NCBI GenBank assembly: GCA_002733765.1
Contig: NVWU01000011.1
Span: forward strand, 62,001-126,000
Direction: 5' to 3'
From: Colwellia sp.
Lineage (GTDB): Bacteria > Pseudomonadota > Gammaproteobacteria > Enterobacterales > Alteromonadaceae
DNA: 64,000 bases
Shown piece by piece: positions 5,697 to 51,446 of this stretch; the first letter of the stretch is position 1, and each line of letters opens with the position of its first letter. The notes under the pieces were generated by a model. It was not told where the DNA came from, did not search any database, and worked only from the letters and a program-made list of their open reading frames with translations. The position numbers were made by a program, and so were the translations under genes.

Positions 5697-5763
5697 AAGC
5701 CATAAACACTACTTTCCATGTCATATCAAAATGCGAGTGCCAGACTATTTGCGTAATGTATTA

Positions 5764-6513
5764 TTAATGACTCAGATAACCTTCAAGCAATAGCTGCCAA
5801 TTATCATGTTGATAATGAAATATAGGCAGTTTATTTAGCTCTTTTAAAAAAGAGCGTTGTAATCTTGCCATATTAGCTCGTTGCCAATTTGCTTGGTTAT
5901 TTTTTCTAATTTCTCCGCGATCAAAATCGATTAAAAAAACATTATCATTTTTATCTATCAAAATATTGTGAGCATTTAAATCATGATGATAAATATTATT
6001 ATCGTGAAAACGTTTAATTGTTATGCCTATTTTTTTCCACAATGCCGCTGATAATGTTTGTTTGGATAATAATGCAACTAAATCTTGTGCATTTTCAATA
6101 CGGCTACTCAGTAAATCAGCATGATAAAAAAAACCGTGGCGAATAACTCGACAAGCAATAGGCTTGGGGGCAGGTAGTGCCAAATTTTGCATATAACCTA
6201 ACAAAACAAATTCACGCACTGCTCGGGTATTTTCTTGTGAAGTAAACCAATAGCTATCATTGATTATTTTACCTATTAAGCCACCACGATAATAATGGCG
6301 TAATACCCAGTGTCTTACCTGTTTGCCTGTTTCATTAGTATATTTAACAAACCAAGTAGTACCACGCCCTTGTGCTGAGCCCGTGATAGCATTTGCTTGT
6401 TGCCAGTAGCTAACATCGAGCATGTTGGAGTCAAATGAGTTAATTTCATCGCTATCGTAGATACTATAGCTTTTATTTTGTTGAACAGTTTTTAGCTGTG
6501 AGCTGCTATTCAT
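5764..6513 (-). CDS. kdkA: 3-deoxy-D-manno-octulosonic acid kinase
   Basis: A 249-residue kinase that phosphorylates Kdo of lipid A-Kdo at the 4-position, part of inner-core lipopolysaccharide synthesis. The protein-kinase-like motifs are visible: RHYYRGG N-lobe region, catalytic HHDLNAHNILID and metal-binding LIDFDRGE. The start overlaps the stop of waaA by four bases (ATGA), so the two are translationally coupled. A single phosphorylated Kdo, as in Haemophilus and Vibrio, is expected from this pairing; that is inference from the family. Confidence 0.92.
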   Translation of the reverse strand: MNSSSQLKTVQQNKSYSIYDSDEINSFDSNMLDVSYWQQANAITGSAQGRGTTWFVKYTNETGKQVRHWVLRHYYRGGLIGKIINDSYWFTSQENTRAVREFVLLGYMQNLALPAPKPIACRVIRHGFFYHADLLSSRIENAQDLVALLSKQTLSAALWKKIGITIKRFHDNNIYHHDLNAHNILIDKNDNVFLIDFDRGEIRKNNQANWQRANMARLQRSFLKELNKLPIFHYQHDNWQLLLEGYLSH

Positions 6514-35638: not shown

Positions 35639-36502
35639 ATGATCCACAGCATGACGGCATTTTCACGTTTTGAAGTCAAAGGTGATTGGGGCAATGCAGT
35701 TTGGGAAATTCGCAGTGTTAACCAACGTTTTTTAGAAACTTATTTCCGTTTACCTGAACAGTTTCGGAGTATTGAACCCTTATTAAGGGAGCGTTTTCGC
35801 AAACAGTTAAACCGTGGCAAGGTTGAATGTAATTTACGCTTTAATGCTAACCCTGGAGCCAAAAATGATTTAGCACTCAATGAAAAGTTAGCTTTACAGT
35901 TAATTCAGCATGCTAACTGGATTAACGAGCAGACGTTAAACAGTAAAATCAATCCATTAGAAGTGATGCGTTGGCCAGGTGTGATGGAAGCCGCTGAAGC
36001 TGATGTTTCTGTTATTCAGGCTGAGTTGTTGGCGGGTTTTGAGCAAGCACTGAAAGATTTTATAAGTGCACGTGCTAGCGAAGGTGAAAATCTTAAAGTG
36101 ATGATTGAACAACGTCTTGATGCTATCAGCAGCGAAGCGGATAAAGTACAGAAATTTATGCCCGAAATTATTGAGTGGCAGCGTAAACGGATTACCGATA
36201 AATTTGCCGATGCTAACATTGATCTAGACTCTACTCGCGTAGAACAAGAGCTAGTATTATTAGCGCAAAAAATGGATGTTGCTGAGGAATTAGATCGCTT
36301 AACTAGTCATGTCAGTGAAACGAAAAAAATATTGATAAAAGGTGGCGCACAAGGTCGCCGTTTAGATTTTATGATGCAAGAGTTTAATCGTGAAGCGAAT
36401 ACGCTGGGCTCTAAGTCAATCAATACTGATGTTACTGCAAGTGCGGTTGAGTTAAAGGTGCTTATTGAGCAAATGCGTGAACAGATTGCGAATATAGAAT
36501 AA
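35639..36502 (+). CDS. yicC: YicC family endoribonuclease
   Basis: A 287-residue YicC-like protein: MIHSMTAFSRFEVKGDWGNA, SVNQRFLETYFRLPEQFR near the start and VAEELDRLTSHVSETKKILI, GRRLDFMMQEFNREANTLGS at the end. YicC proteins are reported RNases acting on structured RNA. The stop codon region (CAGATTGCGAATATAGAATA) is repeated 15 kb downstream and marks the insertion site of a genomic island; the coding sequence is intact after insertion. The original terminator lies beyond the island at 51479-51504. Confidence 0.95.
   Translation: MIHSMTAFSRFEVKGDWGNAVWEIRSVNQRFLETYFRLPEQFRSIEPLLRERFRKQLNRGKVECNLRFNANPGAKNDLALNEKLALQLIQHANWINEQTLNSKINPLEVMRWPGVMEAAEADVSVIQAELLAGFEQALKDFISARASEGENLKVMIEQRLDAISSEADKVQKFMPEIIEWQRKRITDKFADANIDLDSTRVEQELVLLAQKMDVAEELDRLTSHVSETKKILIKGGAQGRRLDFMMQEFNREANTLGSKSINTDVTASAVELKVLIEQMREQIANIE
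36482..36501. other. Left attachment-site repeat (attL core)
   Basis: CAGATTGCGAATATAGAATA, the last 19 coding and stop-codon bases of yicC, identical to 51427-51446. An integrase remnant begins 170 bases downstream. Confidence 0.85.
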
Positions 36503-36670: not shown

Positions 36671-37821
36671 ATGAATGATAAGCAAATAAAGGCTTTTATA
36701 CGGACAGGAGTAAAACAAGAAAACCCGTTGGTGATGGTCTCTATATACGCGTACAAACCAAAGGGCTGGCGTACTGGGAAGTTCGCTACACCATTAATGG
36801 TAAACGCAGTTTTATGACTATAGAAGGTGGCCTGTACCCAACAATGCCATTAGTTGCAGCAAAAGCAGACGCTGCAAAAATAAAACTGCTTGCCAAAACA
36901 GGTAAAGACCCCTTAGCTGAACGTAATAGACTGGGTAACGGCCAACCAAAAACAGTTAATGATTTATTTGAAATTTGGTATGCAAAATTAAGCAAAAGAA
37001 TCAAAAGTCATGCTGCCAATAAACGCCACTATATTAATGAAATTAAACCTCATATCGGTAACTTAGCTATTACACAAGTTGTTCCAATAGACATTCAAAA
37101 TATTATCGATAAAATCGTCTCCAGTAAACGCCCAGCAGTCGCCAACAAAACATTAATATGCTTGAAACAGCTATTTAACGAAGCATGTAAGCTAGGTCTG
37201 ATGATTTATAATCCAGCAAGTCCTTTTAAAATAGCTGATGCTGGCGGTGAAGAAAAAAGTAGAGATAGAGCACTTAGTGAACCAGAACTTGCCATTGCAT
37301 TTAAAGTCCTACGCGATAATTCAGACATATTCACGCGAGATAATTATTTAACTTTAGCATTACTTGTTTCTCTTGGTGTACGTAAAGGCGAATTGATTGC
37401 CGCAAAATGGCAAGAGTTTGATTTTGAAAAGCAAGATTGGAGCCTACCGGTTAAGCGAAGTAAAACTGGCGTTGCGATAAACATCCCCATACCTGGCAGT
37501 ATCATCCCGTGGTTTGAGGAGCTTCATCTCAGATCTTGTGGATCTGACTATGTGTTTCCATCTAGAAGAGCAAGTAAACGCAGAGGCTATATTTCTGATG
37601 ATACCCTCAACCATGCACTCGCTAAAATACTTGGAAAAAAAGTTGATAGTAAAAAACAACCTTATGAAAACTTCCTTGGTAAGGCTGGTGTAGATGATTT
37701 TACCCCTCATGACATGCGCCGAACTTATCGTACCTTGTTATCTGGGCTTGGCATAACAAGAGAGATTGCAAAAAAGTGCCTTAATCACAAGGTTCAATGT
37801 ATTAAGCAGCAAACTTGCTAA
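36671..37821 (+). pseudogene. P4-type tyrosine integrase, frameshifted and truncated
   Basis: The ATG at 36671 opens a P4-type N-terminus (MNDKQIKAFIRTGVKQ) that leaves frame in the A-rich stretch at about 36712-36723; the rest continues one frame over (PVGDGLYIRVQTKGLAYWEV). One missing base explains it. The catalytic domain has Arg in LGVRKGEL, HDMRR and the His of CLNHK, but after CLNHK the sequence departs from the family and stops, so the catalytic Tyr segment is missing. An ATG at 36814 could still yield a shorter, inactive protein. It adjoins the left att repeat, as expected for the island integrase. Confidence 0.85.
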
Positions 37822-38275
37822 TGATACTGATGCTTTTATTCACTTAAGTCAATTATTAACAGATGCTCTTTTATTAGGTGATAAAATCGGAGTTTACAAT
37901 GAAAGTGTCGAAAACATTCAGGCATTAAGGGATAACGAAATAATCAAAAAGTCTCAAAGTGCTGGCGGTGATAAATCTAACGAGGTGAATAATAGAATTA
38001 AACTGCTAATCGTTAATATCAACAACAAAATGAAATCAGATAAACGCATTTATTCAGCGCCAATACCAGATAAGGCATTAGCTACATTTAACTTGTTAGC
38101 CAAATACAGACAAGAAAGTTTAGCTACCAGTACTTTGCAATATTATTTCAGCGAAGCTATGGATAAGAAGTCTAAAGGTGGTAGGCCACCAAAGGGTAAA
38201 CCATCAGAGGAAGAGCTTTCTCAATGGATGAATAAAACTTTTTCGGCACAAGATGTTAATCAACATTTCTTATAA
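37794..38275 (+). pseudogene. 3' remnant of an unrecognised island gene fused to the integrase end
   Basis: A frame of about 160 residues runs from near the end of the integrase to 38275 without a good start: the only in-frame initiator is a TTG at 37766 inside integrase codons. The C-terminal part is charged and helical (NEVNNRIKLLIVNINNKMKS, KKSKGGRPPKGKPSEEELSQ). I do not recognise it. The junction suggests that a deletion joined a 5'-truncated gene to a 3'-truncated integrase. Confidence 0.5.
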
Positions 38276-38390: not shown

Positions 38391-38587
38391 ATGACCAACC
38401 CTTTACAGAACCGACCGAACGCCTTATTCGAGAATCAGAGAGAAGGCAATTAACATCCGTCTGTCGTACGGCTGCATGGACGATGGAACAACAAGGTCTA
38501 TTTCCAAAACGTCGGAAATTGCACCCTTCAGGAACCACGGTGTGTTGGTTATTAAGTGAAATAAATTTATGGATCAAGGAAAGATAA
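38391..38587 (+). pseudogene. AlpA-family regulator with a one-base frameshift
   Basis: The ATG at 38391 begins MTNP and then stops early. One frame over, the sequence reads EPTERLIRESERRQLTSVCR, AAWTMEQQGLFPKRRKLHPS, WLLSEINLWIKER, the standard AlpA/phage excisionase helix-turn-helix. Adding one T in CCCTTTACA at about 38400-38406 restores a 65-residue protein. AlpA proteins activate integrase or act as excision factors. The defect may be real or a base-call error. Confidence 0.7.
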
Positions 38588-38601
38588 GTAGTCAACCCAT
38601 C

Positions 38602-38826
38602 ATGAAGACACATTTTTCAGACCCTATTGAGCAATACATTGATGAAAACCGTCTTCTTGGTAAACCAGAAATTCAAAAGATACTAAAAGTAAGCCGTTCA
38701 ACGTTAGCTCGTCGTGTTAAAAAAAGGCAATTCCTAATGCCTGCAATTATACAAAATGGACGTTCATTATGGCGATTTAAAGATGTTCAATTGTGGCTTG
38801 AGCGAAATTTATCACGCCAGCGTTAA
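38602..38826 (+). CDS. AlpA-family helix-turn-helix regulator
   Basis: A 74-residue protein (MKTHFSDPIEQYIDENRLLG) with an AlpA-like DNA-binding motif KPEIQKILKVSRSTLARRVK and the closing WRFKDVQLWLERNL. It is a second copy next to the frameshifted one but distant in sequence. The ATG at 38569 is an alternative start overlapping the previous gene. Likely a regulator of excision or of the Gp2-like gene downstream. A clear terminator follows. Confidence 0.78.
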   Translation: MKTHFSDPIEQYIDENRLLGKPEIQKILKVSRSTLARRVKKRQFLMPAIIQNGRSLWRFKDVQLWLERNLSRQR

Positions 38827-38837
38827 TCAGTAATCAA

Positions 38838-38866
38838 AAGGCAGGTATGGCAACCTGCCTTTTTTA
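38838..38866 (+). terminator. Terminator after the second alpA-like gene
   Basis: AAAGGCAGGT-ATGGCA-ACCTGCCTTTTTT: a 7-base GC-rich stem extended by A-T pairs, with a T-run. Confidence 0.85.
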
Positions 38867-39053
38867 TATCTAACGATGACGCACTTTGACGCAGCTAGAG
38901 CATAAAAATAAGGCTTGAGAAATAATTAACCCCTTACTTTAACTGGTTATACATATCAAACAGTCAACTTTTTTCAGCGGACGTTTAATAATATAAAGCC
39001 AGCTCTATAGTCATTAAACAAATATTCTTATTAATGAAATACCTTAATTTATA

Positions 39054-39854
39054 ATGTTTAAAATAACAGATAATAATTCATTTCTTTTCGCCTATCTAAA
39101 TCATTTCTATAGTGTTTATCAACCTAAAAAGGGCACTCAAAATACAGTCGCATTAAAACGTGTATTTCGATTATTTGAAATCATGCTGTCTTATTACTCA
39201 AGAGTATTCTTAGTCAGAATAGATCTACACCCACAAGCTTTCAGTGTTGATAATAAAGTCACGAGCTTATTTCTAAAAATGTTCATCGCCAAGCTAGAAA
39301 ACCAATATCAATGTAAGGTGGGTTATTTCTGTGCAAGAGAACAAACCAAAGCTTACGAACCAGACAAACCTTACAAACAACATTATCATTTAGTATTATT
39401 GTTGAGTGGTCATAAGGCTATGCTCCCTCATAATATACTTATTCAACTTCAAGCAGATTGGGCACAACATTGCCAAGGTAGCGTCTACTTTGTTGATAAG
39501 CCTTATTACATGATACACAGAGGAGACAAAGCCTCAATCAATCCAGCGATATACCGTATAAGCTACCTCACTAAAAATCACACTAAGGAGCATAATAAGC
39601 CAGCTAACAGTTATTTATGTAATGAGATTAAGTTAAGAGCTAAATATAAGGGTAATTCAAACAATGAACACTTGCTCGTTGACCCTGTGATAACTCACCG
39701 AACCAAACAACAAGAACTTAAATATGAAAGTAATATAGCGGCGTATCAAAAGCCAAAACACTTCCAAGAATCAAACTCTAAGATTCAGCTCCATTCCAGT
39801 AAGTTACTTGCTACTAATATCTTAAAAGAAAATCATGTAACAGAACTGGCTTAA
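39054..39854 (+). CDS. YagK/YfjJ-domain (inovirus Gp2-like) protein
   Basis: A 266-residue protein resembling the YagK/YfjJ C-terminal domain family, also named inovirus Gp2. FLVRIDLHPQAF and KQHYHLVLLLSGH give an HxH-type metal motif reminiscent of HUH replication initiators, and IYRISYLTKN is a typical late motif. Such proteins occur in P4-like satellites and small prophages beside AlpA regulators, as here. A rep-like role is inferred. Four repeated CGCA motifs follow it. The C-terminal 60 residues are low-complexity and polar. Confidence 0.68.
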   Translation: MFKITDNNSFLFAYLNHFYSVYQPKKGTQNTVALKRVFRLFEIMLSYYSRVFLVRIDLHPQAFSVDNKVTSLFLKMFIAKLENQYQCKVGYFCAREQTKAYEPDKPYKQHYHLVLLLSGHKAMLPHNILIQLQADWAQHCQGSVYFVDKPYYMIHRGDKASINPAIYRISYLTKNHTKEHNKPANSYLCNEIKLRAKYKGNSNNEHLLVDPVITHRTKQQELKYESNIAAYQKPKHFQESNSKIQLHSSKLLATNILKENHVTELA

Positions 39855-40292: not shown

Positions 40293-41210
40293 ATGTCTGT
40301 ACCAAATTACCAATCATTTATGACACCATTGTTGCGCGAACTAGCTGATGGTTGTGTTGTTAGGCTAAAAGACATTGATACTAAGGTTTATAATCAATTA
40401 GGTTTAACTCCTGAGCAACTTCAACTGCGAATTCCAAGTGGCAAGCAAACCTATGCTTATCATCGGTTAGGCTGGGCTAAGACATATTTAGTCCAAGCGG
40501 GATTAATTGAACAACCTAAACGCGCTTACTGCAACATTACTGATATAGGCACACAAGCCTTAGCTTCAGGTAAAGAGATTGATAATAGATATCTCAGTCA
40601 ATTCAGCGATTTCATTGCTTTTAAAATGAGAAGTAATAAAGACGAAACTGAAGTACTGCAACACGATTTAGCTAATTCAAGTAATGAGCAAACCCCGCAA
40701 GAAACACTTGAAACAGCGTTTGAAACAATAAATTCTGCTTTAACTGCTGATATTCTCGATACCATATTGAAAGCATCACCAGAGTTTTTTGAAAACTTAG
40801 TGGTCGATTTAATGGTCGCTATGGGCTACGGCGGTTCACGAAAAGATGCCGGTCAGGCAACACAATATAGCCAAGACGGTGGTATTGACGGTATTATTAA
40901 AGAAGATAAATTAGGTCTCGAGATGATCTATCTTCAAGCAAAACGCTATACCAATAAAACCGTAGGGCGGCCAGACTTGCAAGCATTCGCTGGCGCACTT
41001 GATATGCATAGAGCTAAAAAAGGTGTATTTATAACCACCAGCAGTTTTAGTAAAGAAGCACAAGAATTTACCGGCATGATTGAAAAGCGAATTGTGTTAA
41101 TTGATGGTGAAAGGCTCACTGAACTTATGCTCGAACACAACCTAGGTGTCAGCATTAAGCAAGTATTTGAAATTAAAACTATTGATACAGACTATTTTTC
41201 TGAAGAATAA
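40293..41210 (+). CDS. mrr: Mrr-type restriction endonuclease
   Basis: A 305-residue protein. The N-terminal winged-helix Mrr_N domain (residues 1-100; YQSFMTPLLRELADG, YAYHRLGWAKTYLVQAGLIE) is followed by a PD-(D/E)xK nuclease domain: ENLVVDLMVAMGYGG, DGGIDGIIKED, and IYLQAKRY with the catalytic Asp and the Q-x-K pair. Mrr nucleases cut methylated DNA. It is encoded 13 bases before hsdR, on the same strand, so it may be co-expressed with a type I system. Length matches E. coli Mrr (304). Confidence 0.92.
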   Translation: MSVPNYQSFMTPLLRELADGCVVRLKDIDTKVYNQLGLTPEQLQLRIPSGKQTYAYHRLGWAKTYLVQAGLIEQPKRAYCNITDIGTQALASGKEIDNRYLSQFSDFIAFKMRSNKDETEVLQHDLANSSNEQTPQETLETAFETINSALTADILDTILKASPEFFENLVVDLMVAMGYGGSRKDAGQATQYSQDGGIDGIIKEDKLGLEMIYLQAKRYTNKTVGRPDLQAFAGALDMHRAKKGVFITTSSFSKEAQEFTGMIEKRIVLIDGERLTELMLEHNLGVSIKQVFEIKTIDTDYFSEE

Positions 41211-41223
41211 GAAAGGACATCTA

Positions 41224-44200
41224 ATGCTTAGTAGGGACAGTAACTTTGAGTTTTTAAAACAGCATGACCCTGTTTATTTTCAGCTGGCGAGTACAGCCGA
41301 ACAGGTGTTTGCTAGCGATCCCAATACCACTCTGATGAAATTACGTCAGCTAGGTGAAGCGCTGGCGCAAGATATTGCTGCCCGTTCTGGAGTTGAGTTT
41401 GACGATGCGACAAGTCAGCACGATTTACTGTATAGAATAAATCGTGCAATAAGTCTTGAACCAATAATAAAACAATTATTTTATACACTACGAGTTGAAG
41501 GCAACAGAGCCAATCATCAGTTTAAAACTAAACATAAAGAAGCATTAGACGGCTTAAAATTGGCACGTGAACTAGCAATCTGGTTCCATCGTTCTTTTGC
41601 TGATCTCAAGCAGACTTTTAAGCCTGGACCTTTCATTTTACCAGAAGACCCTAGCCACCAGCTACGACTGTTGCAAACCGAAATACTGACATTACAAAAT
41701 CAGTTGTTCGAAAATAACGAGCAAATTGATAACAGCCAAAAACTGACAAGTTTATTAGCGCAAGAAAAAGAAGAGTATGCCGTTCTTGCTGAGCAAATGG
41801 ATGTTGAAGCTCGAACATTAGCGCAACAAGCGCAATTTCATGAACAAACTATTATTGAGCAACAACAAGCATTTGACCTGCGACTTAAAGAACTGCAATT
41901 ACAACTTAAAGAAAAAGACAAAGAAGTTACAGCTGCCCGAAAACAGGTTGGTAAACGCACTAAAAAAGCCAGTAGTAACTTTGAGCTTAATGAAGAACTC
42001 ACACGAATTATCATCGACCAACAACTAATCGATGTTGGTTGGCAAGCAGATACCCAATTATTAACCTACGCCAGCGGTACTCGTCCTGAAAAAGGTAAAA
42101 ACATTGCTATCGCCGAATGGCCTACATTGTATCAAGGTAAAAAAGGTCGCGCAGATTATGTATTATTTTGTGGGTTAACAGCCATTGCAGTAGTTGAAGC
42201 TAAAAAAGAAAACACCAATGTTGCCGGAAAAATACCGCAAGCCGAACGTTATTCTAAAGGTTTTAAGGTCCATTCACCTATAACAGGAGCATGGATTAAT
42301 GAAGGGCGAACCGTTGCTTGGGCAGACGAATCAGACAGTCATTATCATATACCCTTTGTTTATTCCTCTAATGGTCGTAATTTCAATAAAAATATCAAAG
42401 AACTCTCTGGTACTTGGTTTCGTGATGTACGTAGAGCAAGTAATGCAGCTAGGCCATTAGAAAGCTTTCATTCACCTGATGGCTTAATTGATAAGCTAAC
42501 ACGTAGGAAAGAAGCGGCAGAACAACTACTTCAGCAAGAAGGTTTTAACTATTTAGGTTTACGTGACTATCAAGAAAAAGCAATTCAGGCGGTGGAGACA
42601 GCATTAGAACATGGTAAAACCAGCTGTTTACTGGCGATGGCAACTGGCACAGGTAAAACCCGTACCATTATCGGTTTAATGTATCGTTTTCTAAAGGCCG
42701 AGCGCTTTAAGCGCATTTTGTTTTTGGTAGATAGAACAGCCTTAGGAAGCCAAGCGAGTGACGCATTTGACGAAGCGCAACTTGAACAAAATAAAACACT
42801 GTCTTCAATTTACAATATTGCGCAATTAGGTGACATGGCAACTGAAGCAGAAACGCGAATTAAAGTAGCAACGGTACAGGCTATGGTTAACCGTATTTTT
42901 ATCTCTGATTCACCGCCGCCATTAGATGAGTTCGATTGTATTATTGTTGATGAAGCTCACCGTGGTTACGCGTTAGACAAAGATATGACTGAAGGTGAAG
43001 TAGCTAACCGAGATGCTAGCCAGTATTTATCTTCTTATCGACGAGTATTAGATTATTTTGACGCTGTGAAAATTGGTTTAACCGCAACACCAGCAAAACA
43101 CACCAGTGATATATTTGGCAAACCCGTTTATACCTATACTTATCGTGAGGCTGTTGCAGCCGACTGGTTAACCGACCATGAACCACCAATAAAATATGAA
43201 ACCTTATTGAGTAAAAATGGTATTACCTTTGATAAAGGGGAAACGGTTTCGGTTATCAACACCCAAACAGGTGAAGTTGAAACATCTGAGCTGGAAGATG
43301 AAGTTAAATTTAATATCGAATCATTTAATAGCCGCGTGATTACCAAGGAATTTAACAATGTTATCTGCGAACAATTGGTTAAAGAATTAGACCCCTTTAG
43401 CGACGAAAAAACCTTAATATTTTGCACCAGAGATTTACATGCAGATATGGTTAAAACGGCGCTCGATAAAGCTTTTATAGCTTTGTATCAAGATGATTAT
43501 AATCAAGCCGCGGTCGCTAAAATAACAGGTGAAAGCGATAAGGTTAATCAGCTGATTCGCAAATATAAAAACGAACGCTACCCAAATATTGCCATCACCG
43601 TTGACTTGCTAACAACAGGTATCGATGTTCCTAAAATATGTCACCTAGTCTTTTTACGCCGAGTGAAATCGCGTATTTTATACGAACAAATGATGGGCCG
43701 TGCGACTAGGCGTTGCGATGAAATTGGAAAAACGGCATTTAAAATATACGACCCCGTAGATCTCTATAGTGCTTTAGAAGATGTAAACACCATGAAGCCT
43801 ATCAGTAAAGATCCTAATATCACCTTAGAGCAGCTGATGGACGAACTCACCGATCCACAGCACCTTGAGCAAGCGCTTGATACACCAGGTGAACAAGAGG
43901 CAACGTCCCATGCTGACGATGTATTAAATCAGCTAAGCCAGAAAGTAATGCGCGTAATGCGAAAAGCGACTAAAAAAGCAGAAACGAAACCTGAGCTTAA
44001 AGATAAATTGAGTCAATTAGAGGCTAGTTGGGGAGTGGCTCCAGACAAACTTCACCAGCATCTTCATCAGTTGGGACCAAAAGACGCAGCAGTATTTTTA
44101 ATTAAACATAGTAGTTTATTAGATCAACTGGCTGAAGTAAGGCATATCGTTGGTTCAGACCAGATGCCAATTATTTATCAAGGAAAAGACGAGTTTCTAG

Positions 44201-44730
44201 GACGAGAGCAAACCTATGGTATTCATGAAAAACCTGCAGACTATTTAGACAGTTTTAATGACTTTATTTTAAATAACATTAACAAGTCTGCCGCACTTTC
44301 TGTGGTGGTTAATAGACCGAAAGATTTAACCAGGGAGCAACTCAAAGAAGTGAAGTTACTACTTGATGATGCGGGTTTCAGTGCCACTCACTTACAAACT
44401 GCTTGGCGAAATAATAGTAATCAAGACATCGCTGCCAGTATTATCGGCTATATTAGGCAAGCAGCTTTAAAAGAAGCCCTAATACCATTTGAGCAACGGG
44501 TACAAATAGCAATGTCACGAATCTATAGTGAGCATAGCTGGAATCCAAATCAACGAAAATGGCTTGAACGTCTAGCTAAACAGCTGGTGCACGAAGCTGT
44601 TATTGATCGGAATTTTGTTAACCAACGTTTCGCTGACCAAGGTGGTGCCAAACGCTTTAATAGCGTATTAGAAGATCAGCTTGATACTGTACTCAATGAA
44701 ATGAGTAGCTACATATGGGAAGTAGCCTAA
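41224..44730 (+). CDS. hsdR: Type I restriction enzyme R subunit (DUF4145-HsdR_N-helicase)
   Basis: A 1168-residue subunit, start at the ATG at 41224 (MLSRDSNFEFLKQHDP) with GAAAGGAC upstream; the longer frame overlaps mrr. Domains: DUF4145-like N-terminus (about 15-130), coiled coil (about 145-245), HsdR nuclease with RADYVLF and VVEAKKEN (about 305-335), SF2 helicase with Walker A MATGTGKTRT near 470 and DEAH near 575, RecA2 with TVDLLTTGIDVP and MGRATRRCDE, then a helical C-terminus like EcoEI R. It cuts unmethylated foreign DNA after translocation with HsdM and HsdS. Confidence 0.94.
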   Translation: MLSRDSNFEFLKQHDPVYFQLASTAEQVFASDPNTTLMKLRQLGEALAQDIAARSGVEFDDATSQHDLLYRINRAISLEPIIKQLFYTLRVEGNRANHQFKTKHKEALDGLKLARELAIWFHRSFADLKQTFKPGPFILPEDPSHQLRLLQTEILTLQNQLFENNEQIDNSQKLTSLLAQEKEEYAVLAEQMDVEARTLAQQAQFHEQTIIEQQQAFDLRLKELQLQLKEKDKEVTAARKQVGKRTKKASSNFELNEELTRIIIDQQLIDVGWQADTQLLTYASGTRPEKGKNIAIAEWPTLYQGKKGRADYVLFCGLTAIAVVEAKKENTNVAGKIPQAERYSKGFKVHSPITGAWINEGRTVAWADESDSHYHIPFVYSSNGRNFNKNIKELSGTWFRDVRRASNAARPLESFHSPDGLIDKLTRRKEAAEQLLQQEGFNYLGLRDYQEKAIQAVETALEHGKTSCLLAMATGTGKTRTIIGLMYRFLKAERFKRILFLVDRTALGSQASDAFDEAQLEQNKTLSSIYNIAQLGDMATEAETRIKVATVQAMVNRIFISDSPPPLDEFDCIIVDEAHRGYALDKDMTEGEVANRDASQYLSSYRRVLDYFDAVKIGLTATPAKHTSDIFGKPVYTYTYREAVAADWLTDHEPPIKYETLLSKNGITFDKGETVSVINTQTGEVETSELEDEVKFNIESFNSRVITKEFNNVICEQLVKELDPFSDEKTLIFCTRDLHADMVKTALDKAFIALYQDDYNQAAVAKITGESDKVNQLIRKYKNERYPNIAITVDLLTTGIDVPKICHLVFLRRVKSRILYEQMMGRATRRCDEIGKTAFKIYDPVDLYSALEDVNTMKPISKDPNITLEQLMDELTDPQHLEQALDTPGEQEATSHADDVLNQLSQKVMRVMRKATKKAETKPELKDKLSQLEASWGVAPDKLHQHLHQLGPKDAAVFLIKHSSLLDQLAEVRHIVGSDQMPIIYQGKDEFLGREQTYGIHEKPADYLDSFNDFILNNINKSAALSVVVNRPKDLTREQLKEVKLLLDDAGFSATHLQTAWRNNSNQDIAASIIGYIRQAALKEALIPFEQRVQIAMSRIYSEHSWNPNQRKWLERLAKQLVHEAVIDRNFVNQRFADQGGAKRFNSVLEDQLDTVLNEMSSYIWEVA

Positions 44731-44804
44731 TGCGGAGAATAAGTGCTGTTTTATAACGGATATAGGAAACAGCACTTATCTATACATAACGCCACCATAT
44801 GTAT

Positions 44805-44860
44805 AAAAAAACCATTTTTATATACACATTTAGTTAATATGTATAAACTATCGATAATTC
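44805..44860 (+). promoter_or_regulatory. Repeated ATATGTATAAA motifs upstream of the Fic gene
   Basis: ATATGTATAAA occurs at about 44808 and 44839 with an inverted TATATACACAT between them. The cluster sits 30-80 bases before the Fic start and could be an operator for the protein's own winged-helix domain, or a promoter region. Confidence 0.4.
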
Positions 44861-44885
44861 TATACCTATACTCAAAGAGACACTA

Positions 44886-45965
44886 ATGAGCCATAACCTT
44901 ACTGAGTTACCGTTGCCCAATATTGAAGCATGGGAAACCCGCGCAGTATTAAAACAAACAGCGCTAGCTCATCGCTATTTAGCCGAATTAAAAGGGGTTT
45001 CGGCAACCATCCCTAATGAAGCGATCTTAATCAACACCTTAACGCTGCAAGAAGCTAAGCACAGTTCTGAAATTGAAAATATCATTACCACTCACGATGA
45101 ATTATTCAAAGCTGAACTATTCACTGAAGCTGCATTAAACCCTGCCACCAAAGAAGTACAAGACTATGCTATTGCTTTGCGTACCGGTTTTTCTTTAGTT
45201 CGTGACAGTAAACTTATTCGCTTAGCTGACATCCTAGAGATTCAAAAAACGCTAGAAAATAACAAAGCTGGCTTTCGAAGGTTACCAGGCACTGAACTCA
45301 AGAACGCGCAAACGGGCGAAGTGGTTTACACCCCGCCGCAACACCCACAAGATATCGTTCAGTTAATGGATAATCTTGTTCAATACATTAATGATGATCA
45401 GCTTTGTGATGCTGACCCTCTAGTTAAAATGGCTATTATTCACCATCAATTTGAAAGTATTCATCCCTTTTACGATGGTAATGGTCGCACCGGTCGCATC
45501 ATCAATATGTTGTATTTAGTAGGACAAGACTTACTAGATCTACCGGTACTTTATTTAAGTGGTTATTTAATTCAAACCAAGACTGATTATTATCAAAAAT
45601 TACAAGCGGTGCGCGACAACGGCGAGTGGGAACCATGGCTGTTATATATGTTAGAGGGCATAGTACAAACCGCCCAAGCTACCATTAAACTGATCAAAAA
45701 CATCAAACAATTGATGCAAAATTTTAAACAACAGATACGCGAGCAATTACCAAAAATTTACCGGCAAGAACTACTTAATAATTTATTCAACCACCCTTAC
45801 ACAAAAATAGAATTCATGGTTAACGACCTCGATGTTAGTCGACTAACCGCAACTAAATACTTAGAGCAACTGGTTGAAATCGGCCTACTCACAAAAGAAA
45901 AAGTAGGACGAAGCAATTACTACATCAACCAGTCATTATTATCACTGCTGATGGCTCGCCAATAA
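44886..45965 (+). CDS. Fic family AMP-transferase-like protein with inhibitory motif
   Basis: A 359-residue Fic protein. The catalytic motif HPFYDGNGRTGR is complete at residues 193-204. The N-terminal segment HSSEIEN (Ser60, Glu64, Asn65) fits the class II inhibitory motif [S/T]xxxE[G/N], so the enzyme is expected to be self-inhibited. A C-terminal winged helix (FMVNDLDVSRLTATKYLEQL) suggests DNA binding. It lies between hsdR and hsdM, on the same strand, with its own upstream region of 155 bases containing repeated ATATGTATAAA. Fic genes inside type I loci are known, but the role is unclear. Confidence 0.93.
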   Translation: MSHNLTELPLPNIEAWETRAVLKQTALAHRYLAELKGVSATIPNEAILINTLTLQEAKHSSEIENIITTHDELFKAELFTEAALNPATKEVQDYAIALRTGFSLVRDSKLIRLADILEIQKTLENNKAGFRRLPGTELKNAQTGEVVYTPPQHPQDIVQLMDNLVQYINDDQLCDADPLVKMAIIHHQFESIHPFYDGNGRTGRIINMLYLVGQDLLDLPVLYLSGYLIQTKTDYYQKLQAVRDNGEWEPWLLYMLEGIVQTAQATIKLIKNIKQLMQNFKQQIREQLPKIYRQELLNNLFNHPYTKIEFMVNDLDVSRLTATKYLEQLVEIGLLTKEKVGRSNYYINQSLLSLLMARQ

Positions 45966-46028
45966 TAGATTGCAGAAACAGTCAAATAAACGAACTAAAC
46001 ACGATTTAAACATATTTTAGGAAGACCA

Positions 46029-47564
46029 ATGAACAACAACGACATCGTACAAAAACTGTGGAATCTTTGTGACGTATTACGAGATGACGGCATTAACTAC
46101 AGCGACTATGTTACCGAATTAGTCTTGTTACTGTTTTTAAAGATGGTGCATGAAAAAACCGAAGCGGGACTATTCAATAAACATCCCTTGCCCGATGGTT
46201 GTTGCTGGACAGACATAGAAAAAAAATCAGGTTTGAACCTGCTCGATGATTACAAACAAATATTATATAAACTGTCGACTGGTAAAGATGCCCAAGGCGA
46301 TTTCGTTCATAATGATCCACTAATTTTAGCCATTTATGCCGATGCACAAACTCGGTTGCGTGAACCGCGTCACCTTGAGCAACTAATAAAATCACTGGAT
46401 AAAATTGATTGGTTTAGTGTCACTAAAGACGGTTTAGGCGATCTTTACGAAGGCTTGTTAGAAAAGAACGCCAATGAAACAAAATCAGGTGCTGGTCAAT
46501 ATTTTACTCCACGTGCCTTAATTGACTCTATGGTACGTTGTATTAAACCAACTCCGGGTGAGGTTATTCAAGATCCCGCCGCGGGTACTGCAGGTTTCTT
46601 AATTGCCGCCGATCATTACATGAAAGGTTTGAGCGATGATTACATGGACTTAATCCCCAAAGAAGCTAATTTTCAAAAGAATGAAGCATTTGTCGGTGTC
46701 GAGTTAGTACCATCAACCCGCCGTTTAGCATTAATGAACTGTTTATTACACGGCATGGAAGGTGACGATGAAGGTGTGGTGCATTTAGGGAACTCGTTAG
46801 GGCAAGTAGGTGCTAGTTTGCCTAAAGCCGATATTATCCTAGCCAACCCACCTTTTGGTACCTCTAAAGGTGGCGACGCCTCTATTACTCGCGACGATTT
46901 AACCTTTCCCACCAGCAATAAACAATTGGCATTTTTGCAACATATTTACCGCAACTTAAAGCCCGGTGGTCGCGCTGCCGTGGTACTGCCAGACAACGTA
47001 TTATTTGAAGCAGGTATCGGTAAAGACGTGCGCAGCGATTTAATGGATAAATGTAATCTGCATACTATCTTGCGCCTGCCAACGGGTATTTTCTACGCTG
47101 CTGGCGTTAAAACCAATGTGTTATTTTTTACCAAAGGCAGCGTCAAAGACAAGCACCAAGAAGAAAACTGCACCGACAATACTTGGTTTTATGATCTACG
47201 TACTAATATGCCAAGTTTTGGTAAACGCACACCTTTTGGTCAAAGCCACCTTAAACCATTTGAACTTGTTTTTGGCGAAGATGCCAATGGACAAAACACT
47301 CGCAAGGAAGGCGAATGGAGTTTCACCGAAAAAGATAAGGTGAATGATGCAGTCTTCAGCCGCTGGCAGTGTTTTAGTCGTGATTTCATTCGTGATACTA
47401 AAGGTGATTCACTCGATATCAGTTGGATTAAGGATAAAGACAGTGTTGATGCTGCTGATTTAGGAACACCTGAAGAACTAGCCGGTGAAGCTATGACGGA
47501 GCTGAAAGGCGCACTGGCAGGACTTGAATCTTTGATAGCCTCGTTAACTGATAAGGTGAAGTAA
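46029..47564 (+). CDS. hsdM: Type I restriction-modification methyltransferase subunit
   Basis: A 511-residue N6-adenine methyltransferase. HsdM_N helical domain (about 5-130), then GAGQYFTPRALID, motif I DPAAGTAGFL (182-191) and catalytic motif IV NPPF (273-276). It methylates the host recognition site and forms the core of the complex with HsdS. The stop codon overlaps the hsdS ATG by one base (TAATG). Confidence 0.96.
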   Translation: MNNNDIVQKLWNLCDVLRDDGINYSDYVTELVLLLFLKMVHEKTEAGLFNKHPLPDGCCWTDIEKKSGLNLLDDYKQILYKLSTGKDAQGDFVHNDPLILAIYADAQTRLREPRHLEQLIKSLDKIDWFSVTKDGLGDLYEGLLEKNANETKSGAGQYFTPRALIDSMVRCIKPTPGEVIQDPAAGTAGFLIAADHYMKGLSDDYMDLIPKEANFQKNEAFVGVELVPSTRRLALMNCLLHGMEGDDEGVVHLGNSLGQVGASLPKADIILANPPFGTSKGGDASITRDDLTFPTSNKQLAFLQHIYRNLKPGGRAAVVLPDNVLFEAGIGKDVRSDLMDKCNLHTILRLPTGIFYAAGVKTNVLFFTKGSVKDKHQEENCTDNTWFYDLRTNMPSFGKRTPFGQSHLKPFELVFGEDANGQNTRKEGEWSFTEKDKVNDAVFSRWQCFSRDFIRDTKGDSLDISWIKDKDSVDAADLGTPEELAGEAMTELKGALAGLESLIASLTDKVK

Positions 47565-49150
47565 TGAACCAAGTACTACCTAAAGGCTGGTTAGATACAA
47601 AGTTGGGCAGTATTGTCGATTATGGTAAGGCTGTTAAAAGTGTTTTGTCAGATGTAGAACCGGACTCTTGGATATTAGAGCTAGAAGATATCGAAAAAGA
47701 TTCATCAAAATTACTGAAGCTTGTAACCGCATCTGAACGACCTTTCAAAAGTACAAAAAACACCTTTAAAAAAGGTGATGTTTTGTACGGTAAATTACGC
47801 CCATACTTGAATAAGGTCATTGTTGCCATTGAAGACGGAGTTTGTTCTACAGAGATAATTCCAATAAATTCAGAACCATTTTGTTTGAATAAATATATGT
47901 TTTATTGGCTAAAATGTTCTAAATTCCTACATTATGTGGATGAAGTAAGCCATGGCGTAAATATGCCTAGGCTTGGTACTTCGGATGGTAAATCTGCACC
48001 ATTTCGCTTAGCACCACTAGCTGAACAAAAAGAAATTGTTACTCAATTGGACAAACTATTAGCGCAGGTCGAAAGCACCAAAGCCCGCCTCGATGCTATT
48101 CCCACCATCCTAAAGCGCTTCCGCCAATCCGTTCTCGCCGCCGCGGTGAGTGGAGAATTGACGGAGAAGTGGCGAAGCGATGAATCTAAACTATGGAAAA
48201 AAATTAAGCTACAGGAAGCGGCTAATATTATAGATCCACAACCTAGTCATAGAACTCCAAAGGCTGTCGAAGGTGGTGTTCCATATGTGAGTATTGGTGA
48301 TCTTAAAAGTGACGGCACTATTAACTTTGAAGGTGCAAGAAAAGTCTCACATGATGTACTCGTTGAGCATAAAGCTCGTTATCAATTAAAGAAAGGTGAC
48401 TTTGTTTTTGGAAAAATAGGTACGCTTGGGAAAGCAACTGAATTACCAATCGACATAGAGTATACCTTGTCGGCAAATGTAATTTTAATTCAACCTAATA
48501 CTGCTGTTTCTTTACCTAAATTTATACAATATTTTTTGTCTTCACCAACAACAATGGAGGAGGTCGCTAGACAATCTAATTCAACATCTCAAGCAGCGTT
48601 TGGGATAAAGAAAATGAGAGCTTTTGTTTGTGAACTTCCCTCACTTGTCGAGCAAACCGAAATCGTCCGCCACGTAGAAGAACTATTTGGCTATGCAGAT
48701 AATGTTGAAGCCCAAGTCAACGCAGCTCAAGAACGGGTTAATAACCTCACTCAATCAATATTAGCCAAAGCATTTAGCGGCGAACTCACCGCTAAATGGC
48801 GGGCACAAAACCCTGATTTAATCACCGGCGAAAATTCCGCAGAGGCCTTACTTGAAAAAATTAAAGAAGAGCGTGCAGCACTTGCCGTTAAAAATAAAAC
48901 AACTAGAAAGAAAAAAACAATAAAAAAAGTTGTTACTAAAAAAATAGTAAAGCTTGCAAAGGAGCTAAGTAATCCTATCGAGCGGGTATTGGCTACAGAG
49001 GGGGCACTCAGTCCACAGCAAATATTTGATAAATTAGCTAATGATTTATCTTTGCCCGATGTTTTTGCCGAAATAGCAAAATTGTTAGCTGACAATAAAA
49101 TAGCAGAAACCAGCAAGGATGGCGTGAAAGCCGTAACATTGACCTTATGA
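47564..49150 (+). CDS. hsdS: Type I specificity subunit with C-terminal extension
   Basis: A 528-residue specificity subunit with two target-recognition domains (about 1-160 and 205-365), each followed by a helical spacer: LAPLAEQKEIVTQLDKLLAQ with SVLAAAVSGELTEKW, and LVEQTEIVRHVEELF with SILAKAFSGELTAKW. Beyond the second spacer is a long tail: a Lys-rich linker (KTTRKKKTIKKVVTKK) and about 60 residues that look like a winged helix (GALSPQQIFDKLANDL). Usual HsdS proteins are 400-460 residues. It overlaps the next gene by ATGA. Confidence 0.94.
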   Translation: MNQVLPKGWLDTKLGSIVDYGKAVKSVLSDVEPDSWILELEDIEKDSSKLLKLVTASERPFKSTKNTFKKGDVLYGKLRPYLNKVIVAIEDGVCSTEIIPINSEPFCLNKYMFYWLKCSKFLHYVDEVSHGVNMPRLGTSDGKSAPFRLAPLAEQKEIVTQLDKLLAQVESTKARLDAIPTILKRFRQSVLAAAVSGELTEKWRSDESKLWKKIKLQEAANIIDPQPSHRTPKAVEGGVPYVSIGDLKSDGTINFEGARKVSHDVLVEHKARYQLKKGDFVFGKIGTLGKATELPIDIEYTLSANVILIQPNTAVSLPKFIQYFLSSPTTMEEVARQSNSTSQAAFGIKKMRAFVCELPSLVEQTEIVRHVEELFGYADNVEAQVNAAQERVNNLTQSILAKAFSGELTAKWRAQNPDLITGENSAEALLEKIKEERAALAVKNKTTRKKKTIKKVVTKKIVKLAKELSNPIERVLATEGALSPQQIFDKLANDLSLPDVFAEIAKLLADNKIAETSKDGVKAVTLTL

Positions 49151-50718
49151 GATTAATCTACTTAAAAATCATATCAGAGTTTAAAAACCTTCAAGGCATT
49201 GAGTTAAAGTTAAATGCTGAGGAAAATCGTACTGTTATTATTGGTCAAAATGGTACGGGTAAGTCTAATATTATCGAAGCTCTGGTACATATTTTTAAGC
49301 AGTTGGATTCTGGCGAACCACCAGTATTTAGTTATGATATAAAGTATAAAGTAGGTGATGGCGAGGTGGAAACTTTGCTGCATATAATTACCGATAAAGA
49401 CAATGAACCCTACTATGATATTAAATATCAGGAGTATAACTCGGGTGTAGCTATAACGGACTGGTTGCCTGTTAATATAGCTAAAGTTAAACGTGATCAA
49501 TATGGTTTATCTCCCTACCTTCCACGAAATGTATTTGCTTATTATTCCGGCCCAAGTGATAGATTAGAATCATTGTTTTATGAAAAACGCCGAGAATTCT
49601 ATTTAGAAGTGATAAAAGAAGACTCAAATATTCGAGATAATATTCGACCATTCTTTTATGCTAAACCTTTTCATAGCCAGTTTTCATTACTTGCCTTTTT
49701 TATTGCTCGCGGCTTTCCTCAAGCAGAAAAGTTTCTTCAGCGAGAACTATCAATAGAAAGCTTTCAATCAGCTACTTTTGTACTAACTCAACCATCATGG
49801 GGCAATAGCGATGTGAATGATTTTTGGGGAGCTACAGGAGCAATTCGTGACTTTCTCGAATTAATTAAAGAGCATTGTCTTGGCTCTGTTGAAACAGTAG
49901 AACCCATATTAAATGATTTATCTCGTCGTCAAAAAACAAAAAAAACATTGAGTTTCTACTTGCCGACTAAAGCAAAACTAGACCAACTAGCACGCAATAT
50001 GCGACCTGAAGATCTCTTCAAAATATTAGAAGCAACTTATCTTTCAGGTGTGTTAGAGCGTGTTGAAATTAAAGTTAAACAAACTAAATCTCTACAAGAA
50101 GTTGTATTCTCTGAGCTTAGTGAGGGTGAGCAACAGCTGTTAACTATTTTTGGTTTATTGCAATTTACCGCGAAGCGAGATGCGTTATTTTTACTTGATG
50201 AACCCGACACTCACTTAAACCCGAACTGGGCTGCTAAGTATCATCAGTTTTTGGAAATATTTATTCCTGAAGGTTTTAAAAGCCACATCATAATGACCAC
50301 CCATCATCCGTTGTCTATTGCAGAGTTAAAGCAAGAGCAAATTCAGGTGGTAAAACGTAGCTATGAGACACAGAAAATATCAGTAAAGAGTCCCGATAAA
50401 AGCCCTAGGGGAATGAACGTCAATGGCATTTTAACCAGTGACATGTTTGGAATGTTAACGACGTTAGACAACGATACTCAAAGCCTCATTAGAGAACGGC
50501 GGGAGTTAGTTGTTACCAACGTCGATCCCGAGCGGCTTGAACAGCTGAATACGAAGCTGGAGGTGTTAGGATATGGTTATATTCATCCTGATGAAGATTA
50601 TCGCCAATTTTTAATTGCTCGAAGTAAATATCTTGAATATGGCAAAGAGGTAGCATCTGTAGAAGCTCGCAAGAAAATGATAAAAAACATACTTGCTGAT
50701 ATGAAGGTCTCAGGATGA
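49147..50718 (+). CDS. Restriction-system-associated AAA ATPase
   Basis: A 523-residue ABC/RecF-like ATPase. Walker A GQNGTGKS is at 33-40, the signature LSEGEQQLLTIFGLL near 330 and Walker B LFLLDEPDTHLNP near 345-357; the H-loop lies in MTTHHPLSI. The family is regularly found downstream of type I hsdS and beside an HNH gene; here both are present. It resembles PtuA-type ATPases of Septu in plan. It overlaps hsdS and the HNH fragment by four bases each, so it is a coupled part of the operon. Confidence 0.9.
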   Translation: MRLIYLKIISEFKNLQGIELKLNAEENRTVIIGQNGTGKSNIIEALVHIFKQLDSGEPPVFSYDIKYKVGDGEVETLLHIITDKDNEPYYDIKYQEYNSGVAITDWLPVNIAKVKRDQYGLSPYLPRNVFAYYSGPSDRLESLFYEKRREFYLEVIKEDSNIRDNIRPFFYAKPFHSQFSLLAFFIARGFPQAEKFLQRELSIESFQSATFVLTQPSWGNSDVNDFWGATGAIRDFLELIKEHCLGSVETVEPILNDLSRRQKTKKTLSFYLPTKAKLDQLARNMRPEDLFKILEATYLSGVLERVEIKVKQTKSLQEVVFSELSEGEQQLLTIFGLLQFTAKRDALFLLDEPDTHLNPNWAAKYHQFLEIFIPEGFKSHIIMTTHHPLSIAELKQEQIQVVKRSYETQKISVKSPDKSPRGMNVNGILTSDMFGMLTTLDNDTQSLIRERRELVVTNVDPERLEQLNTKLEVLGYGYIHPDEDYRQFLIARSKYLEYGKEVASVEARKKMIKNILADMKVSG

Positions 50719-50903
50719 GATATATAGATAAAGATAGGTTCAATAATTGTAAACCTGCAGACTGGGATACAAATGCTCTTGCTTGGTCTTTAAGGGTTGA
50801 GCGTTCAGTCACTCCTAAAGATGTTATTAGGAGTATTGGTAACAAGTGGAGTTTACTCAAGCCTGGTTTTATCAGTGAATATGGGGATAAGTGTTGGTAT
50901 TGA
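50715..50903 (+). pseudogene. HNH (PtuB/TIGR02646-like) gene, 5' fragment cut by an IS remnant
   Basis: The first 62 codons, MRYIDKDRFNNCKPADWDTN through ISEYGDKCWY, resemble the N-terminus of TIGR02646/PtuB-like HNH nucleases, where KCWYC begins the zinc-binding site. The frame ends at TGA (50901) exactly where IS-like sequence begins, one residue before the second Cys. The HNH catalytic part is gone. It overlaps the ATPase gene by ATGA, so the ATPase/HNH pair was once coupled. The product should be inactive. Confidence 0.75.
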
Positions 50904-51115
50904 TCAGCGATGTTTTTCGCTTGAATCTTTTCGTTACGAACAAAACGATATGCACCTTCCATATCCGCAGGAGAGTGAGTTATTTGCACTATAGGCTTTC
51001 CTGGCTCTCTCACTAGTGCTGCTGCTAATTTTACCAAGCGAGATGTTCTTCTTGGGTCACCTAGATTTGCTGTTCCAAATTGGGTATTTGCCCACTCGTT
51101 GCTACTATCTATCAT
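50903..51115 (-). pseudogene. Tn5/IS50-like (IS4 group) transposase, N-terminal fragment
   Basis: On the minus strand, MIDSSNEWANTQFGTANLGD, RRTSRLVKLAAALV, HSPADMEGAYRFVRNEKIQAKNIADQ match the N-terminal DNA-binding domain of Tn5-like transposases (ALGDPRRTARL and EGAYRFIRN are hallmarks). After about 71 residues the frame enters the HNH gene antisense and similarity ends. No catalytic DDE domain is present. Confidence 0.82.
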
Positions 51116-51221
51116 CAGTTAAGTCACTTTTGTTATGTACCTCCTGATCTGATCGCAGTAAATTTATTTAGTTCAAAAAAATCTCAAATTTTTCAATCTA
51201 GGATTTGTGTATAAGAGACAG
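50903..51221 (-). mobile_element. Remnant of an IS50/Tn5-like insertion sequence
   Basis: It consists of the transposase N-terminal fragment and an outer end at 51202-51221, GATTTGTGTATAAGAGACAG, which closely resembles the 19-base Tn5 outside and mosaic ends (TGTGTATAAGAG-CAG). The CAG terminus faces right, so the element lay to the left; its other end and most of the transposase were deleted and the break is joined to the HNH gene. Confidence 0.75.
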
Positions 51222-51426
51222 CCTAAAGGAAGGGATGAACCCCTTACCCATAAACTAGAAATAATGACTTCATAAGTTCTTTTTAAGGCTTATTCTAATA
51301 ATTAACTGTAAGCATCAAACGTTAAGTGACATCAATGACTATACCCAGAAAAAAATACACGGCTAAATTAAACTCTGTTACGAAAATAGTGATGAAAAAT
51401 TATCGCTTTACTTACTACTCAAGATT
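51222..51426. other. Non-coding right edge of the island
   Basis: About 205 AT-rich bases between the IS end and the right att repeat. No reading frame or repeat was recognised. Several short runs (CCCCTTACCC, TAAGTGACATCAATGA) might be integrase arm sites, but this cannot be shown by eye. Confidence 0.4.
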
Positions 51427-51446
51427 CAGATTGCGAATATAGAATA
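51427..51446. other. Right attachment-site repeat (attR core)
   Basis: CAGATTGCGAATATAGAATA is identical to the yicC 3' end at 36482-36501. It is followed by ordinary chromosomal sequence and the terminator at 51479. Confidence 0.85.

Follow-up and report, generated by a model that had tools for sequence, protein, structure and literature searches.

The anticodon nuclease PrrC is kept silent by the type I restriction-modification (RM) enzyme to which it is linked (PMC2610378), and inhibition of EcoPrrI by the T4 protein Stp activates it (PMC12707154); in the PrrC170 locus the genes are given in the order HsdR, HsdS, PrrC, HsdM (PMC11555353). Septu pairs of an ATPase (PtuA) and an HNH protein (PtuB), together PtuAB, are described in the literature cited here as standing alone or under retron control. 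The PtuAB of retron-Eco7 cleaves tRNA-Tyr, as does that of Septu EcB88 (PMC13096335), and E. coli Septu is reported to act on nicked DNA (as cited in PMC11555353). PARIS, a related ABC-ATPase system, senses Ocr and cleaves tRNA (PMC12839542); the same article cites Krishnan 2020 on systems resembling RM in which an ABC ATPase is paired with a nuclease. Sofic is reported to be a single-protein abortive-infection system, with a small antitoxin, AS1, downstream of it in E. coli (PMC12249575). Here we compare with these systems an operon at positions 40293 to 50903 of a 64,000-nucleotide stretch of Colwellia sp. DNA (GenBank assembly GCA_002733765.1, contig NVWU01000011.1, forward-strand positions 62,001 to 126,000; hereafter the window, numbered from its first letter). 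We consider it fairly probable that this is an island-borne, EcoKI-like RM operon with Mrr and Fic as add-ons and the remains of PtuAB, a pair that in relatives would serve as a docked effector of the HsdM-HsdS complex (HsdMS). The window copy is a decayed example; the result of note is the wider pattern, chiefly a C-terminal tail on HsdS.

The survey covered a sample of 394 genomes of the order, in which this type of PtuA (expectation value E ≤ 1e-30) was found at 16 places in 15 genomes and the window type of HsdM (E ≤ 1e-60) at 47 places in 44 genomes; PtuA was also found in 7 of 147 genomes of a family sample and 2 of 369 genomes of a class sample. The annotated loci (L numbers below) comprised the window place, the other 46 order-sample HsdM places, and the PtuA places gathered by searches at family, class, order, and genus level and in viral and plasmid records; class-sample HsdM places, which occurred in 34 of the 369 genomes, lie outside this set. 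Fifteen of the 16 order-sample PtuA places were taken in, the one left out (G550:C5) being an incomplete match within an open frame of great length. Dropped from the locus counts were L077 (coordinates and scores identical to those of L076), L088 (on the contig of L004), and the extensions L097, L087, and L098. Strong PtuA, defined by E < 1e-140, was present in 38 non-duplicate loci, a count that excludes L066 (a piece of PtuA where a contig starts) and L062 (a PtuA fragment). A search of phage records with PtuA at 1e-20 gave no match.

In 37 of the 38 loci the gene immediately ahead of strong ptuA was an hsdS on the same strand, the gap being -71 to +42 bp; the remaining locus, L073, starts 89 bp from the end of its contig. 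PtuB was next after PtuA in 36 of the 38 (split in L048), and was left unscored in two, the window (a fragment) and L090 (at a contig end). All six plasmid PtuA hits had hsdS upstream, every gene being broken in one of them, L086. This order recurred in three operon backbones: (i) [mrr]-hsdR-[fic]-hsdM-hsdS-ptuA-ptuB, the window type; (ii) [mrr]-hsdR-hsdS-ptuA-ptuB-hsdM; and (iii) [mrr]-hsdR-hsdM-hsdS-ptuA-ptuB, whose HsdR is different and shorter. A sequence-only reading of the window had proposed that its seven genes form one undescribed system and had made that idea depend on their conserved association across genomes. Such an association was found for PtuA and PtuB behind hsdS, and it recurs; it does not extend to the whole set. 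Among the 47 order-sample HsdM places, strong ptuA was present in nine and fic in nine, with both in only two (L034 and the window). The fic gene always lay between hsdR and hsdM. Mrr matches were found in 10 of the 47 places, eight of them 5' of hsdR; in L050 the match lay at the other end of the operon, and in L060 it was a weak match of an open reading frame (ORF) of 822 amino acids (aa). A single seven-gene system is accordingly rejected: mrr, fic, and ptuAB vary independently and are separate optional modules around hsdRMS.

Six further places of the 47 carried other ATPase genes followed by an HNH-like ORF (four of these ORFs were scanned against PADLOC and two judged by eye); the ATPase gene lay behind hsdS in L019, L022, L026, L032, and L055, and two genes intervened in L044. 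Because other ATPase/HNH-like genes also occupy it, the position behind hsdS resembles a slot open to effectors in general. Five of these loci (L019, L022, L026, L044, and L055) share a second ATPase type and an HNH-like protein of 355–399 aa near hsdS, and the HNH-like proteins of L019, L044, and L055 gave weak matches to the PADLOC candidates PDC-M01/M62. The slot between hsdR and hsdM also looks exchangeable, since an Abi-family gene (5735–6730) replaces fic there in L081, a Pseudoalteromonas plasmid. A further linkage of PtuAB with Fic was seen in L073 (1945–3818), where a fic gene overlaps the end of ptuA-ptuB. Decaying copies were observed as well: ptuB lies in two ORFs in L048 (5188–6065), all genes are broken in L086 (a V. 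anguillarum plasmid), hsdR and the HsdS tail lie in separate ORFs in L090, and hsdR lies in two ORFs in L096.

The HsdS of the window ends in a tail domain (codons 455–528, positions 48926–49147, + strand). An AlphaFold2 model of the tail (predicted local distance difference test score, pLDDT, 80; six sequences) has helices followed by a beta hairpin, that is, a winged helix, and in a Foldseek search the nearest solved folds were the winged helices of Zalpha, MarR, and TubR, all weak matches (best E 8e-3). EcoKI HsdS aligns up to residue 450 of the 528 in the window protein and stops there. Length past the last AFxGEL-type motif, which can be measured for canonical HsdS and not for backbone iii, was 112–127 residues in 14 canonical HsdS ahead of strong PtuA, as against 37–52 in most HsdS without PtuA. 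The exceptions without PtuA were L045 (3 residues), L059, L033, L049, and L057 (88–439, with the inner motif only), and L055 (108, with another ATPase behind).

A profile built from 14 HsdS tails was run over 3,249 ORFs. Its only matches were HsdS ahead of PtuA: it matched in 28 of 37 PtuA loci, 14 of these being new to the profile, each with E ≤ 3.1e-5 and one with its ORF split, and in none of 47 HsdS rows, fragments included, without strong PtuA behind. The HsdS proteins that precede the second ATPase type (L019, L022, L026, L044, and L055, the last with its 108-residue extension) were not matched. Among 878 ORFs of 12 plasmid HsdM control loci (of 64 HsdM records, chosen by eye for variety) and K-12, the best E was 0.45, and a Pfam scan of six tail stretches gave nothing above cut-off. 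Leave-one-group-out profiles recovered the tail in held-out groups a–d (E 3e-9 to 0.11), with a best E of 0.13 outside PtuA loci; in group e (backbone iii) three of four tails were borderline (0.2–0.6) and L063 was unmatched. Tabulated against PtuA, the tail was present in 8 of 8 and in 0 of 36 loci, all eight tailed HsdS belonging to the training set of the profile. On a tree of HsdM from 67 loci, leaving out L029 and L030 (repeat copies in one genome), L086 (broken genes), and L101–L113 in addition to the dropped loci, PtuA changes 15 times in the best topology, 11 of these changes being forced by well-supported branches. With backbone iii and L085 set aside, the tail changed together with PtuA in all 10 independent pairs (p = 0.002); with these included, 9–10 of 11 pairs changed in the same direction and none in the opposite one. 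Close sister operons without PtuA behind hsdS lack the tail (e.g., L045 beside L046). From this pattern we infer that the HsdS tail is probably an adaptor that docks PtuA.

Some operons of this kind have no hsdR nearby. The gene was missing near 8 of 33 informative PtuA loci (L004, L056, L079, L082–L085, and L094), a count that excludes L053, L058, L064, and L078, where the contig ends too near upstream. A C-terminal remnant of hsdR was found in L004 and L079, and none in the scanned DNA of the other six. In all eight loci hsdM, hsdS, ptuA, and ptuB are open, with a PtuB ORF of 260–305 aa. Among 36 comparison loci without strong PtuA (hand-counted; hsdS is followed by another ATPase in 8 and by none in 28, three of them copies in one genome), hsdR was missing in one, where it lies about 12 kb away (8/33 versus 1/36, Fisher p = 0.011, the two sets coming from different searches, with PtuA and with HsdM). 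For plasmids alone the counts were 4 of 5 versus 1 of 11 (p = 0.013), the 11 controls excluding L113, which has HsdM alone. These counts suggest that PtuAB operons may be independent of HsdR. In the other 25 informative loci hsdR is kept, in two of them (L090 and L096) in broken form.

Taken together, the fixed gene order, the overlapping or abutting frames, and a tail that co-varies with PtuA point to a physical coupling of PtuAB with HsdMS. The proposed sequence is as follows: in intact relatives, the extra winged-helix domain of HsdS would hold PtuA; PtuB would be silent while docked on the methylase-specificity complex; and once that complex met phage DNA or a phage anti-restriction protein, PtuB would be released or switched on, to cut DNA or tRNA. 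In our best reading, PtuAB occupies the slot held elsewhere by PrrC. The sequence-only reading had suggested that the pair acts with, or guards, the RM system; the co-occurrence of PtuA with the HsdS tail supports the link, which in this genome concerns a broken pair.

Several points weigh against this interpretation. Nine of the 37 loci, those of backbone iii and L085, escape the tail profile; for six of the backbone-iii tails a match comes from profile-profile comparison only (87% probability, against 1.7% and 0.8% for two controls), in a test that excluded L063 and L096 of the same backbone. The HsdM tree was quickly made, and several of its long branches are flagged. On genome contigs alone hsdR was missing in 3 of 24 versus 1 of 36 loci (p = 0.29), and the tree contrast for hsdR loss gave a median p of 0.125. 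The tail could instead bind DNA or be regulatory. Finally, the pair is dispensable, because the open RM operon of the window keeps PtuA without PtuB.

The strongest alternative, which we regard as quite possible if short of an even prospect, makes PtuAB a guard of the PrrC kind: masked by the HsdMS core and freed when an anti-restriction protein of the Ocr/Stp type attacks that core, it would cause abortive infection by cleaving tRNA or DNA and would play no part in restricting unmodified DNA. The operon slot is that of prrC, and there are precedents: PrrC itself, silenced by a type I enzyme and triggered by Stp; PARIS, which combines sensing of Ocr with tRNA cleavage; and the tRNA-Tyr cleavage by the PtuAB of retron-Eco7 and EcB88. 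The retention of a full-length PtuB ORF in all eight loci without a nearby hsdR speaks against it. Because PtuAB persists where hsdR is lacking, HsdR is unlikely to be all that it guards; a guard of HsdM or HsdS is possible.

Somewhat less likely is that PtuAB replaces HsdR as the effector. Here HsdM2S would find unmethylated target sites in invading DNA and recruit PtuAB through the HsdS tail, PtuB would cut, and HsdR would be optional. The four open genes of the loci in which hsdR is absent or a remnant, and the excess of such loci both overall and among plasmids, are what this alternative would lead one to expect; it is weakened by the genome-contig and tree contrasts given above, by the 25 of 33 loci that retain hsdR, and by the design of the comparison, in which the sets came from different searches, the plasmid controls were chosen by eye, and the absence of hsdR was judged at the locus and not across the whole genome, where HsdR could act in trans. 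A related and similarly tentative proposal is a methylation-gated Septu, in which HsdM and HsdS would be the sensor of self and non-self, the tail the adaptor for PtuA, and PtuAB, not HsdR, the killer, so that hsdM-hsdS-ptuA-ptuB would form a complete defence system with no need of HsdR; the window would then be a mirror-image product of decay, with HsdR kept and PtuB lost.

It is improbable that ordinary crowding of a defence island accounts for the pattern, with modules as chance neighbours and the tail inherited with one HsdS lineage. The many combinations of mrr, fic, and ptuAB fit such crowding, as does K-12, which also has mrr beside hsd; the fixed hsdS-ptuA-ptuB order with gaps near zero in three backbones, the joint change of tail and PtuA in every independent pair, and the tailless sister operons do not.

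In the window itself, ptuB survives as a 5' fragment of 62 of about 287 codons (50715–50900, + strand, the ORF running to 50903; PADLOC PtuB, E 1e-06, profile positions 1–68 of 283). Intact PtuB has 287 aa both in L003, the corresponding locus of Colwellia piezophila, and in L004. The fragment lacks 21 of the 25 columns conserved at ≥90% among 39 PtuB ORFs (duplicate loci included); among those lost is a histidine at L003 position 76, in a DVDHYWPK stretch that we take for the HNH motif. The seventh gene had been read from the sequence as an HNH gene, and the ATPase/HNH pair had been given the labels TIGR04435 and TIGR02646. Neither the gene nor the labels survived: the fragment has lost the motif, the 126 bits scored with TIGR04435 fall short of its cut-off of 300, and TIGR02646 was unmatched in both the fragment and the PtuB of L003. 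DNA homology to L003 ends at window position 50900 (L003 11757) and resumes at 51222 (L003 12996). Between them lies a 321-bp remnant of a Tn5/IS50-like insertion sequence (IS) (50901–51221, - strand, boundaries from the L003 alignment; PF14706 9.2e-19, NF049926 1.1e-15), which holds an N-terminal piece of an IS4/Tn5-family transposase in an ORF starting at 51115 on the - strand and which ends in CTGTCTCTTATACACA at 51206–51221. In the simplest history, an IS50-like element would have inserted downstream of ptuB, and a later deletion would have taken most of the element together with the last ~225 codons of ptuB. That the truncation and the IS end arose as an artefact of library preparation or assembly is very improbable, since, even if the 16-bp element end resembles the Nextera mosaic end and is identical to part of the Tn5 mosaic end of library kits, the same stretch holds a transposase gene piece with family matches, native sequence restarts exactly at the element end, and the stretch occurs once in the genome, inside a 181-kb contig.

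No further pieces of ptuB were found in the draft genome of 41 contigs. As ptuB is cut before the HNH motif and its remainder was not found, there is no working ATPase/HNH pair in this genome, the idea of an active one is rejected, and PtuA has lost its nuclease partner. As to relaxed selection since that loss, the codons of ptuA relative to L003 (398 same, 88 silent, 37 changed) show a pattern not clearly unlike that of hsdM (305, 152, and 54).

The operon otherwise agrees with much of what had been read from the sequence alone. Seven same-strand ORFs are present, six of them open and the seventh the ptuB fragment; profile matches bear out the families assigned to Mrr, HsdR, Fic, HsdM, and HsdS; and the type I set is complete, with all three Hsd subunits present and open, and these look capable of functioning as a conventional type I enzyme. 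The overlaps that had been noted from hsdM onward are real: 1 bp between hsdM and hsdS (47564), 4 bp between hsdS and ptuA (49147–49150), and 4 bp between ptuA and ptuB (50715–50718). The first gene, mrr (40293–41210, + strand), encodes a type IV modification-dependent endonuclease with Mrr_N (PF14338) and Mrr_cat (PF04471, 125 bits) domains, both above the Pfam cut-off (PADLOC mREase_IV 289 bits, 1.5e-86), and is 96% identical to mrr of L003. The EcoKI-like hsdR follows (41224–44730, + strand; NF008521 1582 bits). Family matches begin at residue 31 of its listed ORF, so the start is probably the ATG at 41224, 13 bp past the mrr stop, rather than the first-listed 41146. Loosely spaced between hsdR (155 bp) and hsdM (63 bp) is fic (44886–45965, + strand), which encodes a SoFic-like protein adenylyltransferase (PADLOC SoFic 400 bits, 3.5e-120; Pfam SoFic-like_C 100 bits, cut-off 27; best E 9.6e-83 against SoFic chains in the PDB; 384 bits against the NCBI SoFic equivalog, cut-off 550). 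Its translation contains HPFYDGNGRTGR, which we take to fit the Fic motif.

The N6-adenine methyltransferase gene hsdM (46029–47564, + strand; PF02384 4.8e-73, PADLOC MTase_I 712 bits) is followed by hsdS (47564–49150, + strand; PF01420 in two stretches, PADLOC 429 bits), with two target recognition regions ahead of the C-terminal extension. HsdS is only ~46% identical to that of L003 (L003 8298–10004), against 89–99% identity for mrr, hsdR, fic, hsdM, and ptuA; since HsdS diverges and its neighbours do not, the target recognition regions have probably been exchanged. The ATPase gene, open throughout (49147–50718, + strand), had been likened to Septu PtuA, and this holds: it matches PADLOC PtuA PDLC00293 with 537 bits over profile positions 1–518 of 527, and 49 of the 50 best solved-structure matches of its predicted structure were, by title, PtuA chains of Septu or type I-A retrons, at modest TM-scores (0.28–0.39 by query length). 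In Pfam it matched AAA_21, SMC_N, AAA_15, and other ABC-type models and no PrrC-type model; PrrC has its own Pfam model. PtuA of L003 is 93% identical.

The whole operon lies on a 14.9-kb island between exact 20-bp repeats of the 3' end of yicC (36482–36501 and 51427–51446, + strand), probable att sites that mark its ends. We take yicC to be a known site of island insertion; it is also found upstream of the similar operon of L004 (Shewanella). The surrounding contig, 15 in the assembly, is the 181-kb one mentioned above, in a genome that is 98.9% complete. A tyrosine integrase ORF (36814–37821, + strand; PF00589 5.6e-14) seems cut short, its match reaching only position 157 of the 172 in the profile, and the island may therefore have lost the ability to move on its own; a second ORF overlaps it in another frame (region 36814–38275). 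Between the integrase and mrr (38569–39854) are an 85-aa ORF, AlpA-like by eye, with weak PADLOC matches only, and one of 266 aa that matched nothing in NCBIfam or PADLOC. Beside the right repeat, 51222–51411 matches L003 12996–13145 and 13308–13355 and is the remnant of an ORF that has 260 aa in L003; the window copy has undergone an internal deletion.

If the coupling proposed here is correct, a PtuAB clade tied to type I RM enzymes by a private HsdS adaptor would explain both how the pair is aimed and how it is silenced. The principle known from PrrC, a single enzyme, would then extend to an effector slot general to hsd operons, and type I systems that work without HsdR would be predicted. 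For annotators, the HsdS tail offers a sequence marker of coupled systems. A full-text literature search, with most subscription papers beyond its reach, gave no description that we recognised of PtuAB with an HsdS tail; the bare association of RM with PtuAB may already be in print, because Krishnan 2020 is cited for such ATPase/nuclease pairs.

Compared with known systems, the window operon most resembles several at once. It has the mrr-hsdR-hsdM-hsdS order and EcoKI-like subunits of the E. coli K-12 immigration control region; in K-12, however, mrr is on the opposite strand, neither fic nor ptuAB is present there, and EcoKI HsdS (464 aa) ends where the window tail would start. The notion that Mrr and HsdR together restrict modified as well as unmodified DNA thus fits genes that do stand side by side, in what K-12 shows to be a classical arrangement. 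The window Fic is a near full-length match to SoFic, including its C-terminal domain, yet falls below the NCBI cut-off and lies between hsdR and hsdM. EcoprrI likewise places an ATPase-type effector within a type I RM operon directly behind hsdS, and the position of prrC in the PrrC170 locus is that of ptuAB in backbone ii. PrrC, however, is one anticodon nuclease, whereas PtuA is joined by a separate HNH protein; in the present loci hsdR can be missing, and HsdS has an extra winged-helix domain, a possible further difference. The window PtuA fits Septu type I (PADLOC PtuA1/PtuB1), and PtuB of L003, L070, and L063 matches PtuB1 profiles; that type has an HNH nuclease, PtuB, beside PtuA, which in the window is destroyed, and in the present loci the pair sits inside hsd operons behind a tailed HsdS. 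Type I-A retrons (Ec78, Ec83) use the same type of ATPase/HNH pair; no reverse transcriptase was found among 12 window proteins in general profile scans, and the partner of the pair in these operons is HsdMS.

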